Virus record (IMG/VR): IMGVR_UViG_3300037502_000285
Location: 1 to 22,069 of that record
Length of the DNA: 22,069 nt
From: a virus
Reading direction: 5' to 3' (one strand)
Under the pieces are notes generated by a model. The model was given only the letters and a program-made list of their open reading frames with translations, was not told where the DNA came from and did no database searches. The translations under genes were made by a program, and so were the position numbers. Numbering within the stretch: position 1 is the stretch's first letter; the number at the start of each line of letters is the position of its first letter. Below are positions 4,996 through 11,318 of this stretch, piece after piece.

Positions 4996-5337
4996 TTATG
5001 TGACCCCTAAAGAGCGTGCTATTTGCTCATGTATCAGCAAATGGCTGTTGATCCAGTCGTAAAAAGAATCCTCTTGGTTCCAATCTGTGTCTAAAAGGTT
5101 AAACGGGTTGTCCAAATCGAGGATTGTGGCAAACGCCTGATGCTCAATCTGGTGGATTGCCAGCCAATCGTCCAAATCCTCTACGTCAGCGTCTATCAGA
5201 GGATAGCGCGGCACCGTAAACCCAAGGTCAATCAACCTTTCGGCAAAGGCTTGGTGCTGGATACCGTTTTCAAACAGAAACTCTTTTAACCCATCTGGAT
5301 CGCCAAAGCGTACTTGGGCCAGACTTTCAAAGTTCAC
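4996..5337 (-). CDS. Unknown 113-residue protein with three His-containing helical repeats
   Basis: Translation starts at GTG (5337-5335), which overlaps the stop of the preceding gene as GTGA; the spacing supports this start even without a strong ribosome site. The protein contains three related segments at residues 17-39, 55-77 and 92-113. Each follows a pattern of acidic residue, aromatic or leucine, then about six residues, His, Gln/Glu, two residues, Ala (for example IQHQAFAERL, IEHQAFATIL, LIHEQIARSL). The protein is acidic and probably all-helical. No signal peptide or membrane span is visible. It directly follows the holin-like gene, so a role in lysis or late virion assembly is possible. 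I do not recognise a named family. Confidence 0.85.
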   Translation of the reverse strand: MNFESLAQVRFGDPDGLKEFLFENGIQHQAFAERLIDLGFTVPRYPLIDADVEDLDDWLAIHQIEHQAFATILDLDNPFNLLDTDWNQEDSFYDWINSHLLIHEQIARSLGVT

Positions 5338-5522
5338 AGTTTGGCTACCAGCCCAATCAACAGGTTAATTACCCATCCCATCGCGCCAATGATTGTTGCA
5401 GTTGCACCAATGCCAATAACCTCGATACGCTTCAGACGGGCGTTAATACCCCGGTAGCGCTCGGCGCAGATTACCTCATGGGCAGAAAGTTTGGTTTCCA
5501 CAATATCGGAATGAGTAGCCAT
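5334..5522 (-). CDS. Holin-like single-span membrane protein
   Basis: This is a 62-residue protein whose ATG shares one base with the stop of the fibre gene (TAATG). Residues 1-34 are a charged soluble helix (KLSAHEVICAERYRGINARL). Residues about 35-60 form one hydrophobic membrane span (IGIGATATIIGAMGWVINLL), ending with a Lys-Leu tail. An N-terminal charged helix followed by one C-terminal span is the layout of XhlA-type holin-associated proteins and of many small phage holins, and the place after the tail genes fits. No endolysin is found next to it in this window, so the holin role is inference; a small structural membrane anchor is the alternative. Confidence 0.8.
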   Translation of the reverse strand: MATHSDIVETKLSAHEVICAERYRGINARLKRIEVIGIGATATIIGAMGWVINLLIGLVAKL

Positions 5523-7185: not shown

Positions 7186-7380
7186 CTATTCCTTTGTCAG
7201 AGCCATCACTTCATCAATAGTTTGAGACAATTCCCAAGAATTACCATTCATGCCGTAAGCCACCGTTACTTTTGTGCCATCTTCTTGCGTATGCTCAAAA
7301 AACGATGCAATTAAATCGGTGTTAAGGATCAAGCCCTCACCGATACGGCCTTTTGCCGCATTGGTTAATTTAAGCAGCAT
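7186..7380 (-). CDS. Small FlbD-like protein
   Basis: This is a 64-residue protein whose ATG (7380-7378) lies inside the end of the preceding gene (11-base overlap), with AGAGG as ribosome site. Its pattern (LKLT, then G, ILNTDLIASF, DGTKVTV, NGNSWELSQTIDEVMALT) resembles the small FlbD family, where a short beta core ends in a helix with an EVxxL motif. FlbD proteins are known beside bacterial flagellar genes, but the motif is short and the match is by eye, so it may just be the same small fold. It is part of the fibre gene cluster, and a role as a small chaperone or regulator of virion assembly would be a guess. Confidence 0.75.
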   Translation of the reverse strand: MLLKLTNAAKGRIGEGLILNTDLIASFFEHTQEDGTKVTVAYGMNGNSWELSQTIDEVMALTKE

Positions 7381-7756
7381 CAGAAACCTCTACCCACGAA
7401 GTTGTAGCCTCATCCCATGAATAACGCTTTGGGTTTTTGGCTGTGCCAACATCTGTTGGGTATGGAACCGGAGACTCCCATAGGCAAGTATCCTCGTTTA
7501 GCACCCATGAGGCATAGGGCTTGGGAGGAATAAAAGCATCCCGACCAGCATCGTAGGTGTACCCAATACCAGCATAGTTCTTACGCAGAGGCGTGCCACC
7601 TAATGCGTGTACCCCACCGTGGGTGTTGTACGAGGTCTGTTTATAGACATCGCCTGTACGAGCGCAGAGGTCTGCCTCTTTACCGTCATCTTCCTGTCGG
7701 CCTACGGTCACGAATGTGACTATGTTGTTTTCATCTAATTTCGCAAAATGGGACAC
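7370..7756 (-). CDS. Conserved phage protein of RKNYAGIGYTYD type
   Basis: This 128-residue protein starts at GTG (7756-7754), backed by a perfect AAGGAG ribosome site six bases upstream; no ATG fits. It contains a string of motifs I associate with many aquatic phage proteins: FAKLDENNIVT at the start, YKQTSYNTHGGVH, RKNYAGIGYTYD, RDAFIPPKPYASWVLNEDTCLW, PVPYPTD, and a final YSWDEATTSWVEV. The motifs are aromatic and Pro-rich, suggesting a compact beta domain that packs against a fibre. In such genomes it usually lies near tail fibre genes, as here. Its precise role is not known to me; it is likely a virion or fibre-associated protein. Confidence 0.9.
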   Translation of the reverse strand: MSHFAKLDENNIVTFVTVGRQEDDGKEADLCARTGDVYKQTSYNTHGGVHALGGTPLRKNYAGIGYTYDAGRDAFIPPKPYASWVLNEDTCLWESPVPYPTDVGTAKNPKRYSWDEATTSWVEVSDAA

Positions 7757-7762
7757 CTTAAT

Positions 7763-7768
7763 CTCCTT
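7763..7768 (-). promoter_or_regulatory. Shine-Dalgarno site that fixes a GTG start
   Basis: AAGGAG lies six bases before the GTG at 7756-7754 and overlaps the TAA stop (7769-7767) of the polyglycine gene. It decides the start of the 128-residue gene and couples its translation to the fibre gene upstream. Confidence 0.85.
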
Positions 7769-10271
7769 AACTAAAAGTTACTGTTTCTGATGTGGTTGAA
7801 GTAGCAGTCACGGTGTAAATCTTAAAGCCGCCGGATGTTGTGGAGGATTGCGTTACACCGCCTGAGAAGGTTGCAGTACGGGCTTCTGGAATCTTGATGA
7901 TGACTACGCCTGAACCACCTGCACCGCCACCAACGGTATATCCACCACCCCCGCCACCGCCTGTATTGGCAGTTCCAGCAGTTCCGGTGCTGGTAGAGCC
8001 AGCGCCGCCACCATCAGAAGCAGTGCCACCAGAGCCGCCAGTCTGTGCGCCACCGCCACCACCACCAGCCCGAGAAACAGATGAGCCGGTAATTGAAGAA
8101 GATACACCAGACCCGCCATTACCGCCTACTCCTGAACTAGGAATATTGCTACCAACAGACCCTGCGCCACCACCTCCACCGCCAGCGTTTGTTGAATTAC
8201 TTGTTCCACCAGCGTAGCCTTGGTTTGCAGTTCCGCTTCCGTTTGATAAATTATTCCAACCCCCACCGCCTGAACCGCCCGCTTGCGGAGAGCCGTTTCT
8301 TCCAGCGCCGCCTTTTGTAGATGTAATTGTGGAAAAAATAGAATCATTGCCAGCATTTACTGCCGCCCCACCAGCGCCAACGGTGACGGTATAAGAAGTA
8401 CCAACTGCAAGACTTAACGAAGTTTCAGCAGAAGCACCGCCACCTGAAGTTCCGGCACTTGTGCGATACCCGCCAGCACCACCACCGCCAACATCTCCAC
8501 CGCCGCCTCCAGCAATAACTAGGAAGTCAACAGTAAAGTTTGGCTGGAACGTCACAGTCTCAGATGTAGTAGACGTAGCAGTTACAGAGTAGATGTTGAA
8601 CCCACCGGATGTGGACAATGACTTAGTAACGCCGCTAGAGAATGATGCGCCTATGTTGTCAGGTACTTTAATGATGACAATGCCAGAGCCGCCGTTACCG
8701 CCGTTGTAATTATTGCCGCCAAAATTAGCACTACTACCGCCGCCACCGCCACCTGTGTTAGTAGTACCAGCAGTTCCGTTTGCTCCTGTGCCAGCACCAC
8801 CACCGCCACCGCCGCCAGCACCGCCAGAACCAGCGGCGGTACTATTAGCACCACCGCCGCCACCGCCACCGGAACGAGTTACAGATGAGCCAGTAATAGA
8901 GGATGCAGTACCAGCGCCGCCATTTGCTCCAGCACTTCCACTTGATGTTCCACCAATTGCTGATGCGCCACCCCCACCACCTCCTCCGCTAGAGGCCGTA
9001 TTTACTGGGGCAGCACCACCATTGCTACCCTGTGATGGAGATGTATTAGGCGTGTTACCAGAACCGCCTAAATAATATGGGGTGTCGTTAGAAGTGCCGC
9101 CGCCACCAGAACCACCAGTTCCAGCCGCTTTTGCGCTTGATGCTCCATTGCCGCCACCCGTTGAGGTGATTGTTGAAAATACGGAATCAGAACCGCTATT
9201 CCCAGTTCCTGTATTTCCAGCAGTTCCTCCTGAACCACCAGCACCAACGGTTACGGTATATGCCTGACCAAAAGCAACCGATAATGTTGTGCTTGACCGA
9301 TAACCACCAGCGCCTCCACCTCCAGCGGCTCGACTGTTATTCGATGTTCCACCTCCACCTCCACCAGCCACCACAAGCAAGTCGCTCACAGGTGCGCCAG
9401 CAAGGAAAGTCACAGTCTCACTCGTTGTAGAAGTAGCCGTGACTGTATATACGTTGTATCCCGCAACAGAAGTCGAGAGAGATGAAGTTACACCAGATGA
9501 GAATGAGGCATAGTGCGTAGATGGGATTTTGATGATTACGACACCAGAGCCGCCTGCGCCACCGTTAGAGTTTCCTCCACCACCGCCGCCACCACCTGTA
9601 TTAGCCGTTCCGTTAGACGCTCCGGTTCCTGATGCGCCAGCACCGCCTCCACCAGCACCACCAGCACCAGCGTCATCTAATCCACCACCACCACCCCCAC
9701 CCGCCCTAGTTACTGAGGAACCAGTAATAGATGAGGCAGTACCCGCACCACCATCGCCAGACGTTGCCCCGCTTTGGTTTGCTCCTACCGCACCCGCACC
9801 ACCCCCTCCACCACCATAATTTACAAATCCTGTTGTACTTCCACCATTATTACCTTGAGATGGGCTTGTGCTTGGAGTATTACCAGTTCCACCAGATGCA
9901 GCAGCACTAGGAGAACCAGCACCACCTCCAGAGCCTCCATTTGCTCCAGCACCGTTTCCAAAAGAACCGCCACCGCCGCCACCAGCAGAAGTGTTGCTTG
10001 AAAAAACAGAATTACTACCACTTGACCCTTTGTTTGATGTGCTAGTTGAACCTGCGCCACCCCCGCCAACCGTAACTGTATACGCCGTTCCAATAGATAG
10101 AGATTCGCTAGTAAATGAACGATAGCCTCCAGCGCCACCACCGCCACTAGCGTATGAATTAACATTATTCCCTCTGCCACCACCACCCCCACCCGCTACT
10201 ACTAGGTAGTCAGCAAGAATTCCAGCGGCCCCGCCACCACCAGCAAGAAGAATCTGAAAGATGCCGGTCAT
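7767..10271 (-). CDS. Polyglycine-rich tail fibre / adhesin-like protein, triplicated
   Basis: This 834-residue protein begins right after the stop of the previous fibre gene (TAAATG). It is dominated by runs of four to eight Gly. Three large units of about 255-280 residues repeat the same order: a hydrophobic strand (LVVAGGGGG), GGYR, YTVTVGAGG, a SVFST or SIFST turn, several Gly runs, ASSITGSSVTRAGG or a close variant, TANTGGGGGG, GSGVVIIKIP, FSSGVT, and VTATSTTSETVTF. Runs of Gly of this kind form polyglycine-II helix sandwiches in the adhesin of phage S16, and glycine-rich modules occur in many phage fibres. It probably forms a receptor-binding tip or fibre part; the three units may give reach or avidity. 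No chaperone gene is obvious. Confidence 0.9.
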   Translation of the reverse strand: MTGIFQILLAGGGGAAGILADYLVVAGGGGGGRGNNVNSYASGGGGAGGYRSFTSESLSIGTAYTVTVGGGGAGSTSTSNKGSSGSNSVFSSNTSAGGGGGGSFGNGAGANGGSGGGAGSPSAAASGGTGNTPSTSPSQGNNGGSTTGFVNYGGGGGGAGAVGANQSGATSGDGGAGTASSITGSSVTRAGGGGGGGLDDAGAGGAGGGGAGASGTGASNGTANTGGGGGGGGNSNGGAGGSGVVIIKIPSTHYASFSSGVTSSLSTSVAGYNVYTVTATSTTSETVTFLAGAPVSDLLVVAGGGGGGTSNNSRAAGGGGAGGYRSSTTLSVAFGQAYTVTVGAGGSGGTAGNTGTGNSGSDSVFSTITSTGGGNGASSAKAAGTGGSGGGGTSNDTPYYLGGSGNTPNTSPSQGSNGGAAPVNTASSGGGGGGGASAIGGTSSGSAGANGGAGTASSITGSSVTRSGGGGGGGANSTAAGSGGAGGGGGGGAGTGANGTAGTTNTGGGGGGSSANFGGNNYNGGNGGSGIVIIKVPDNIGASFSSGVTKSLSTSGGFNIYSVTATSTTSETVTFQPNFTVDFLVIAGGGGGDVGGGGAGGYRTSAGTSGGGASAETSLSLAVGTSYTVTVGAGGAAVNAGNDSIFSTITSTKGGAGRNGSPQAGGSGGGGWNNLSNGSGTANQGYAGGTSNSTNAGGGGGGAGSVGSNIPSSGVGGNGGSGVSSSITGSSVSRAGGGGGGAQTGGSGGTASDGGGAGSTSTGTAGTANTGGGGGGGYTVGGGAGGSGVVIIKIPEARTATFSGGVTQSSTTSGGFKIYTVTATSTTSETVTFS
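7770..10208 (-). repeat. Three tandem polyglycine protein units
   Basis: Unit 1 spans about 9405-10208, unit 2 about 8547-9386 and unit 3 about 7770-8531. The protein segments line up motif by motif, and VTATSTTSETVTF is identical in all three. The DNA is not: between units 1 and 2, 7 of the 13 codons of that segment differ by synonymous changes, including a two-base Ser codon switch. The triplication is therefore old, or the DNA has been kept diverse while the protein stayed fixed. Confidence 0.85.
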
Positions 10272-11318
10272 TTATGACACGTTCCCTGTGATGACGCAGA
10301 CGTTTGCGTTTGCAAACAAGACTGTAGCGACACCACGGGTTGCTAAAGAAACCGTAGCCTTATCGCTATCCGTACCGGCAATATAAGCCGTACTGATCGC
10401 GCAGTTTACCGTTACAGCACCGTTAGAATTATTAAATAGTGACACAGCATCGCCATTGGCAAACGTACCGTCCGGCACGGTAATTGAACCGCCAGAGGTA
10501 ATCTGAATGTATTTGCCTACGTCAGAAGTGGTCAGCGTATACGAGGTATTTTTAGGCCCACCGTCAGGAATGTTTCTAAATCCCATTCTGAATCCGCTGC
10601 CACCTTCCGTAAACGAGATGGCATTTGCGCCAGATAAGAAAACACCAGTATCCGTATCGTCAGTAAAGCGCAAAGAAGGTGCCGCAGCATTGCCGTTAGC
10701 CAAAGAAGCAATGGTTATAGTCACGTTTCCGCTAGAAATGTTGGCACCAGCAATATTTGCCGCCGTAATTCCGGTCAATGTACCGCCAGTAACTACTACG
10801 TTGCCAGACTGAAGATTGGTAACATTGGCTGTAGTTAAGTTAGCCTGAGTCGCGGTTACGTTAGTAAATGTTGCATTGCCAGAACTGATGTTAGCGCCTG
10901 CAATATTGGCTGCGGTAATGCCTGTTAAGGTGCCGCCAGTGATCAATACGCTTGCCGATTGCATAGTTGCAATGTTGGCAGTCGTTAGGTTTGCTTGCGT
11001 AGCCGTAACATTAGTAACTGTTGCGTTGCCACTAGAAATAGTGACGTTAGAAATCGTGCCGCTTGTGACGTTTACGTTGACAAGGGTGACGTTACTAAGG
11101 GTTTCTACGTCCACCGTGACGTTATCTAGCGTAATGTTGCTGATCGTGCCGCCAGTGATTGTGACGTTGCTTGCTTTTAGATTGACTAAGGTTTCAGCAC
11201 CACTGTTTATACCGTTTATGGCGTTAGATAGTGTAGAAAAATTAGCATCTAGTTGCGACAACGGGATAGACGTTGTGGCATTAGCAAACGTATTGGGTAT
11301 AGTTACAGGAAGTGCCAT
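10272..11318 (-). CDS. Tail fibre protein with 50-residue tandem repeats
   Basis: This 348-residue protein starts one base after the nozzle stop codon (TAAATG) with GAGG as ribosome site. The N-terminus (IPNTFANATTSIPLSQLDANFSTLSNAIN) is typical of small phage fibre proteins and should attach to the virion. Residues 45-205 are Asn/Thr/Ile-rich strands with motifs such as TGGTLTGIT and GANISSGN, likely a repetitive trimeric beta shaft; residues 98-147 and 148-197 are near-identical tandem copies. Residues about 210-265 are a linker, and the C-terminal domain (YTLTTSDVGKYIQIT ... SLFNNSNGAVTV ... VATVLF) is a beta domain seen in many fibre tips. It is the first fibre gene after the nozzle and may be the adaptor to which the others attach. 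Confidence 0.9.
   Translation of the reverse strand: MALPVTIPNTFANATTSIPLSQLDANFSTLSNAINGINSGAETLVNLKASNVTITGGTISNITLDNVTVDVETLSNVTLVNVNVTSGTISNVTISSGNATVTNVTATQANLTTANIATMQSASVLITGGTLTGITAANIAGANISSGNATFTNVTATQANLTTANVTNLQSGNVVVTGGTLTGITAANIAGANISSGNVTITIASLANGNAAAPSLRFTDDTDTGVFLSGANAISFTEGGSGFRMGFRNIPDGGPKNTSYTLTTSDVGKYIQITSGGSITVPDGTFANGDAVSLFNNSNGAVTVNCAISTAYIAGTDSDKATVSLATRGVATVLFANANVCVITGNVS
10728..11027 (-). repeat. Two 150-base (50-codon) tandem repeat units
   Basis: Copies at 10878-11027 and 10728-10877 encode near-identical 50-residue units that start with NAT-TNVTATQANLTTAN and end with GANISSG; the end of the second copy is followed by NVT. Of the 13 codons for the shared TAANIAGANISSG segment, 10 differ synonymously. 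The shaft is thus repeated in protein but hardly in DNA. Confidence 0.88.

Follow-up and report, generated by a model that had tools for sequence, protein, structure and literature searches.

A tail fibre gene on the minus strand of a 22,069-base virus record (the window, by which we mean the whole stretch analyzed) probably encodes an adhesin of three units, in which a vertically inherited, slot-specific scaffold holds polyglycine cores that are swapped as cassettes between related phages. This suggests that the host-binding parts of the fibre are swapped like cassettes.

The fibre gene and its neighbours

On its minus strand the window carries structural genes of a tailed phage, with genes for a terminase, a portal, a major capsid protein and an SU10-type adaptor, followed by tail and fibre genes. 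The capsid protein is 85-87% identical to those of two uncultured spring-water phages; as a clue to the host, MAG contigs fell into conflicting bins (Balneolaceae, beta- and alphaproteobacteria). The fibre gene (7767-10271, minus strand) codes for 834 residues. It matched the Gly_rich_2 profile (PF21722) over three stretches, with an E-value of 6.4e-48 and a score of 164.1 bits against a curated cut-off of 24.3, and also phrog_2295 (E 3e-120). Long, proline-rich ORFs on the plus strand at 7840-8217, 8713-9075 and 9529-9819 mechanically mirror the glycine codons of the opposite strand and are unlikely to be genes.

AlphaFold modelled the full protein with a pLDDT of 81, the first 15 residues falling below 50, and a single unit with a pLDDT of 91.7 and a pTM of 0.90. 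Among solved structures, the single-unit model came closest to the glycine-rich chain in the tail tip of Bxb1 (PDB 9d93; Z 14.7, 177 residues aligned) and to fibre gp24 of Pam3 (PDB 7ypx; Z 13.7, 174 residues aligned), both with Z scores far above those of other chains. Weaker matches of the full model included the glycine-rich regions of ALK and LTK. S16 gp38 (PDB 6f45) was not among the structural matches listed, though it may share the fold. As modelled, each unit consists of stacked glycine runs on a beta base, of the polyglycine-II sandwich type. A polyglycine fold like that of phage receptor-binding tips had been proposed in the initial annotation, and the matches of the predicted structure to the Pam3 and Bxb1 proteins bear this out. 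When units were aligned, the invariant columns were mostly glycine and were separated by variable stretches without a consensus. The alignment points to a conserved glycine stem with hypervariable segments, which may lie at the tip as in polyglycine-II sandwich receptor-binding domains.

Downstream of the fibre gene lies a gene for a 128-residue protein (7370-7756, minus strand) that matched phrog_7759 (E 3.1e-38). In 66 of the 72 loci with room for it, a gene with glycine-rich units ends at most 300 nt upstream of a phrog_7759 relative, and such relatives occur in pelagiphages, cyanophages and Methylophilales phages. The phrog_7759 protein is possibly a fibre partner or chaperone. Upstream of the fibre gene, a 348-residue repetitive protein (10272-11318, minus strand) gave no Pfam match; its position and repeated segments make it a possible shaft or anchor bearing the adhesin. 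It carries the 22-residue segment TGGTLTGITAANIAGANISSGN twice (10725-10790 and 10875-10940, minus strand), identical in protein and with 16 of 22 codons different, and is thus a second repeat protein with this pattern. Farther along, a 62-residue protein (5334-5522, minus strand) has the same position as a gene annotated as a holin in the related phage MW202825, whose fibre slot holds a gene annotated as an endo-N-acetylneuraminidase.

Scaffold and core conservation among related genes

A scan of viral contigs yielded 79 loci, with complete ORFs of one to five units, three being the commonest number. A second set of loci, found through the downstream gene, had mostly one unit, and also two, three and four. 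The first set was partly found by linker peptides, and the test was redone with genes carrying the N-terminal peptide and with the downstream-gene loci. For the codon profile, we took 24 genes, all with the N-terminal peptide MTGIFQIL and thus findable whatever their linkers, of which 22 were kept after near-duplicates were dropped. Searches of cultured phages by tblastn, with the whole protein and with one linker, gave no match, probably because of low-complexity filtering and distance. Two loci of the survey, L162 and L163, have neighbour genes 94% identical in DNA and adjoining fibre genes of one and three units, respectively; the number of units thus turns over quickly.

Along the 22 three-unit genes, synonymous conservation followed a sawtooth, with 0.50-0.84 of codons shared in the N-terminus, the linkers and the C-terminus and mostly 0.34-0.47 in the cores, where chance would give about 0.34. 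The N-terminal segment (residues 1-30, MTGIFQILLAG... DYLVVAGG; 10182-10271, this and all following segments on the minus strand) had a same-codon fraction of 0.58-0.65 versus 0.35-0.38 expected, as would befit vertical inheritance. The values were 0.62-0.84 for linker 1 (residues 241-300, VIIKIPSTHYASFSSGVT...VTATSTTSETVTF...LLVVAGG; 9372-9551), 0.63-0.80 for linker 2 (residues 526-585; 8517-8696) and 0.50-0.71 for the C-terminal scaffold (residues 781-834; 7770-7931). In contrast, the polyglycine cores, the putative exchanged cassettes, stayed close to expectation: 0.35-0.47 versus 0.32-0.38 for core 1 (residues 31-240; 9552-10181), 0.34-0.45 versus 0.32-0.38 for core 2 (residues 301-525; 8697-9371) and 0.36-0.42 versus 0.31-0.37 for core 3 (residues 586-780; 7932-8516). 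Codon sharing was near chance even where the core protein is 92% identical, at residues 181-195, whereas the downstream genes, at 0.60-0.61 (0.61 for the phrog_7759 gene), matched the scaffold segments. Judged from these codons, one mutation rate along the gene cannot give the sawtooth, and the cores appear to have a history different from that of the DNA on either side.

For pairwise comparisons we defined the linker as the last 42 residues of a unit and the core as the polyglycine remainder. Between phages, same-slot linkers were 83-93% identical in protein and shared 0.57-0.66 of codons, against 0.36 expected. Core proteins were 58-60% identical in the same slot and 57% in different slots, with 0.38-0.40 of codons shared either way. 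In 33 genes, the best match of a linker was found at the same slot of another phage in 99 of 99 cases. The best match of a core was at the same slot in 55 of 99, with 33 expected by chance, so that exchange between slots is not random. Linker conservation faded in a deeper sample and is therefore a property of this lineage.

Cores and linkers were decoupled. Of the same-slot pairs, 75 had linkers that matched at 97% or more in DNA; their median core identity was 58%, and only four of them had cores above 90%. Over all same-slot pairs, core identity was bimodal, nearly all values lying at 50-65% or at 95% and above, and linker identity did not predict core identity until the phages were clones. 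Eight other contigs have a linker 1 that matches that of the window at 95-99% in DNA, while their core 1 shows 58-63% identity to core 1 of the window; likewise, core 3 of the window is 55-61% identical to those of genes whose linker 3 is 97% identical. Two of the eight contigs, L061 and L062, are near-identical to each other up to core 3: they agree at 99.7% over the 7.0 kb before it and at 95% over the 4.1 kb after it, and their core 3 is 44-69% identical. In a second pair, L032 and L029, cores 1 and 3 are replaced, while the DNA before core 1 is 98-100%, unit 2 95-100% and the end of the gene 95-96% identical. The reverse was also found. Core DNA was 88-99% identical and linker DNA 62% between unit 3 of L063 and unit 1 of L036; the figures were mostly 97-100% and 73% between unit 3 of L009 and the single unit of L068, and mostly 85-97% and 64% between unit 1 of L074 and unit 1 of L023. 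In the independent set found through the downstream gene, neighbour genes 85-94% identical in DNA stood beside last cores of 55-64% identity. Near-identical scaffolds thus enclose strongly diverged segments and near-identical segments sit on different scaffolds, with sharp borders between core and linker whose breakpoints are located within about 10-20 codons.

Hypermutation in place, for example by a diversity-generating retroelement, is an unlikely source of the core diversity: the differences reach synonymous sites and length all along the cores, and two cores are either near-identical or far apart, as replacement would leave them.

In the architecture that we propose, the core of each unit forms a polyglycine-II sandwich with variable loops, and the linker forms the beta-rich base on which the core stands and by which the unit joins the next one. 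The N-terminus, linkers and C-terminus would be old, having descended vertically together with the downstream genes, and each would be bound to one slot. The cores would be drawn from a large pool and replaced whole by recombination with related phages. Ordinary homologous or near-homologous exchange is the probable mechanism, starting in the linkers and in the runs of glycine codons at the core borders; it seems the simplest route because glycine runs border each core.

Alternatively, the linkers could be selected as DNA: a single protein joint written in a different selected code at each slot would let cassettes recombine in register and keep the repeats from doing so, without loss of units. 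Nowhere in the region, indeed, are synonymous sites better conserved than in the linker DNA (up to 0.84 in slot 1, against 0.61 in the downstream neighbours). The linkers match their own slot without exception, and a 32-nt linker-1 pattern occurs in 31 viral contigs with one copy per contig. We nevertheless regard this explanation as unlikely. To account for the slot specificity, it is enough that a conserved base domain was inherited vertically, and the codon divergence between slots does not go beyond chance. Moreover, exchange is not strictly in register, given that cores also pass to other slots beside different linkers, and the number of units varies from one to five.

Codon divergence between units of one gene

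The 13-residue segment VTATSTTSETVTF is identical in protein in units 1, 2 and 3 (9405-9443, 8547-8585 and 7773-7811, respectively; minus strand). It sits in the beta-rich linker that closes each unit, outside the polyglycine part. Comparing codons by eye, we confirmed the seven of 13 synonymous changes reported in the initial annotation between units 1 and 2, including a serine switch (AGT/TCT); both other comparisons gave 10 of 13. The codon scrambling is real, but it is no special feature of the 13-mer, as whole units are equally diverged. Between the three units of the window gene, identity is 61-66% at the protein level and 59-62% at the DNA level; as had been anticipated, DNA identity did not rise above what the protein leads one to expect. 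Identical residues had a common codon at 66 of 176, 52 of 145 and 61 of 155 positions in the three unit pairs, near the 59.7, 49.1 and 53.0 expected from the codon usage of the gene. Nei-Gojobori estimates gave a pS of 0.65-0.67, a dS of about 1.5-1.7 and a dN of about 0.33-0.35. Since identical residues share codons no more often than codon usage predicts, synonymous sites between these units are saturated, and the codon differences in VTATSTTSETVTF are at the level given by saturation, with no excess of change. Strong selection on the protein, also proposed initially, was evident from a dN/dS of 0.09-0.23 between units 80-95% identical taken from different phages.

The same annotation had suggested selection against homologous DNA that would recombine out units. 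This found no support. The excess of codon sharing averaged 0.036 in same-gene unit pairs and 0.037 in pairs of different slots from different phages (p = 0.96). A faint same-gene deficit (p = 0.08) arose when the expectations were drawn partly from the very units under comparison, and unbiased expectations removed it. With linker codon usage as the expectation, linkers of the same gene were no more diverged than linkers of unrelated genes, and the longest exact DNA match had a median of 16 nt in same-gene and different-gene unit pairs alike. Active avoidance of shared codons between units was rejected, as none of the three tests (codon sharing, linker divergence and longest exact matches) spoke in its favour. 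Because same-gene units are no more codon-divergent than units of different phages, active scrambling against recombination is not needed.

These results also bear on the possibility that the units arose by triplication in place, their DNA being kept diverged by selection against recombination between them. All linkers keep slot-specific codons for one protein motif, and codon sharing between linkers of different slots is slightly below the pooled expectation (0.32 versus 0.36), as that scenario would have it. It is, however, very unlikely: none of the comparisons above, of whole units, linkers or exact matches, set units of one gene apart, and the cores are unrelated in DNA between phages even within one slot, which argues against divergence in place. 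Of the old triplication initially put forward, the age of the slots stands, since every linker finds its best match at the same slot elsewhere; the cores, however, behave as imports from a shared pool, and genes carry one to five units.

If, as we favour, inherited slots hold swapped cores, then the codon scrambling of VTATSTTSETVTF would reflect an early divergence of the slots that was never evened out by recombination within one gene, whereas the cores would be scrambled because each was imported separately. Among three-unit genes, no same-gene pair had an exact match above 26 nt that would point to gene conversion between units. The earlier idea that the units serve as a store of loop variants is without support, as no transfer was found between units inside one gene.

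All comparisons used assembled metagenomic contigs, in which cores could have been falsely joined across linkers that are identical over about 130-180 bases. Such joins could alter which cores sit together, but not local core/linker junctions or near-identical cores with different linkers. That assemblers merely joined different cores at identical linkers is hardly credible, even though contigs that differ in their cores can agree at up to 100% over 126 nt of linker, a length that about equals or exceeds that of common assembly words. A local junction of core and linker is short enough to fall inside a read, false joins do not yield near-identical cores on different linkers, the L032 and L029 pair would need several joins, and saturated core codons beside conserved scaffolds are a property of the pool and not of joins.

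Comparison with known fibres and adhesins

Exchange in phage fibres is usually taken to mean that a whole tip is lost or gained. In this multi-slot adhesin, synonymous sites mark, codon by codon, where vertical inheritance ends and exchange begins, and such a profile offers a clear way to define receptor cassettes in uncultured phages. It also gives a plain account of protein-identical repeats coexisting in one gene, with no special mechanism needed. By analogy with Pam3 gp24 and the gp38 adhesins, the cores are probably host-binding modules that carry the receptor-contacting tips, and a core swap would change the bacteria bound. Should the choice of receptor reside in the cores, one phage could combine three specificities and alter each of them separately. 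Neither the fold nor the modular build of phage fibres is new; in mainly open-access literature, we found no earlier description of a multi-slot fibre with homologous internal cassettes resolved by synonymous sites.

In the Pam3 tail fibre gp24 (PDB 7ypx, 7yfw; PMC9608196), as in the predicted window fibre, a TNF-like beta domain runs into a stacked glycine-rich domain, whose conserved glycine stem bears hypervariable tips proposed to bind the host. In contrast to the window fibre, gp24 has one unit per chain and an alpha-helical trimer shaft, and lacks tandem units and slot-specific linkers; its chaperone gp25 is of the Tfa type, whereas the neighbour of the window fibre belongs to phrog_7759. 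Mycobacterial siphoviruses are described as bearing glycine-rich brush domains whose fingers vary in number (PMC13243795). The Bxb1 glycine-rich chain, the closest solved fold, differs from the window fibre in being part of a siphophage tail tip, and the available part of its description reports no cassette exchange.

In T-even phages, gp38 caps the gp37 fibre via an N-terminal helical platform. It acts as a single adhesin at the gp37 tip (PMC9608196). As in the window fibre, polyglycine motifs alternate with hypervariable segments in the gp38 adhesins of S16, T2 and PP01. Recombination between conserved motifs swaps the specificity of T-even adhesins (Tetart et al., 1998, as cited in PMC12529663), and the seeding of exchange in linkers and glycine codons that we propose would be in line with this. 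The conserved motifs of gp38 are, however, glycine motifs within one domain, whereas those of the window fibre are linkers outside the glycine core, in relatives with up to five tandem units. A recent swap of receptor-binding parts on a near-identical scaffold was also described by Smug et al. (2023; PMC10684548). In the fibre cases presented in the accessible text of that study, a C-terminal domain is replaced by an unrelated one, whereas in the window fibre homologous internal cassettes of the same fold would be exchanged slot by slot.
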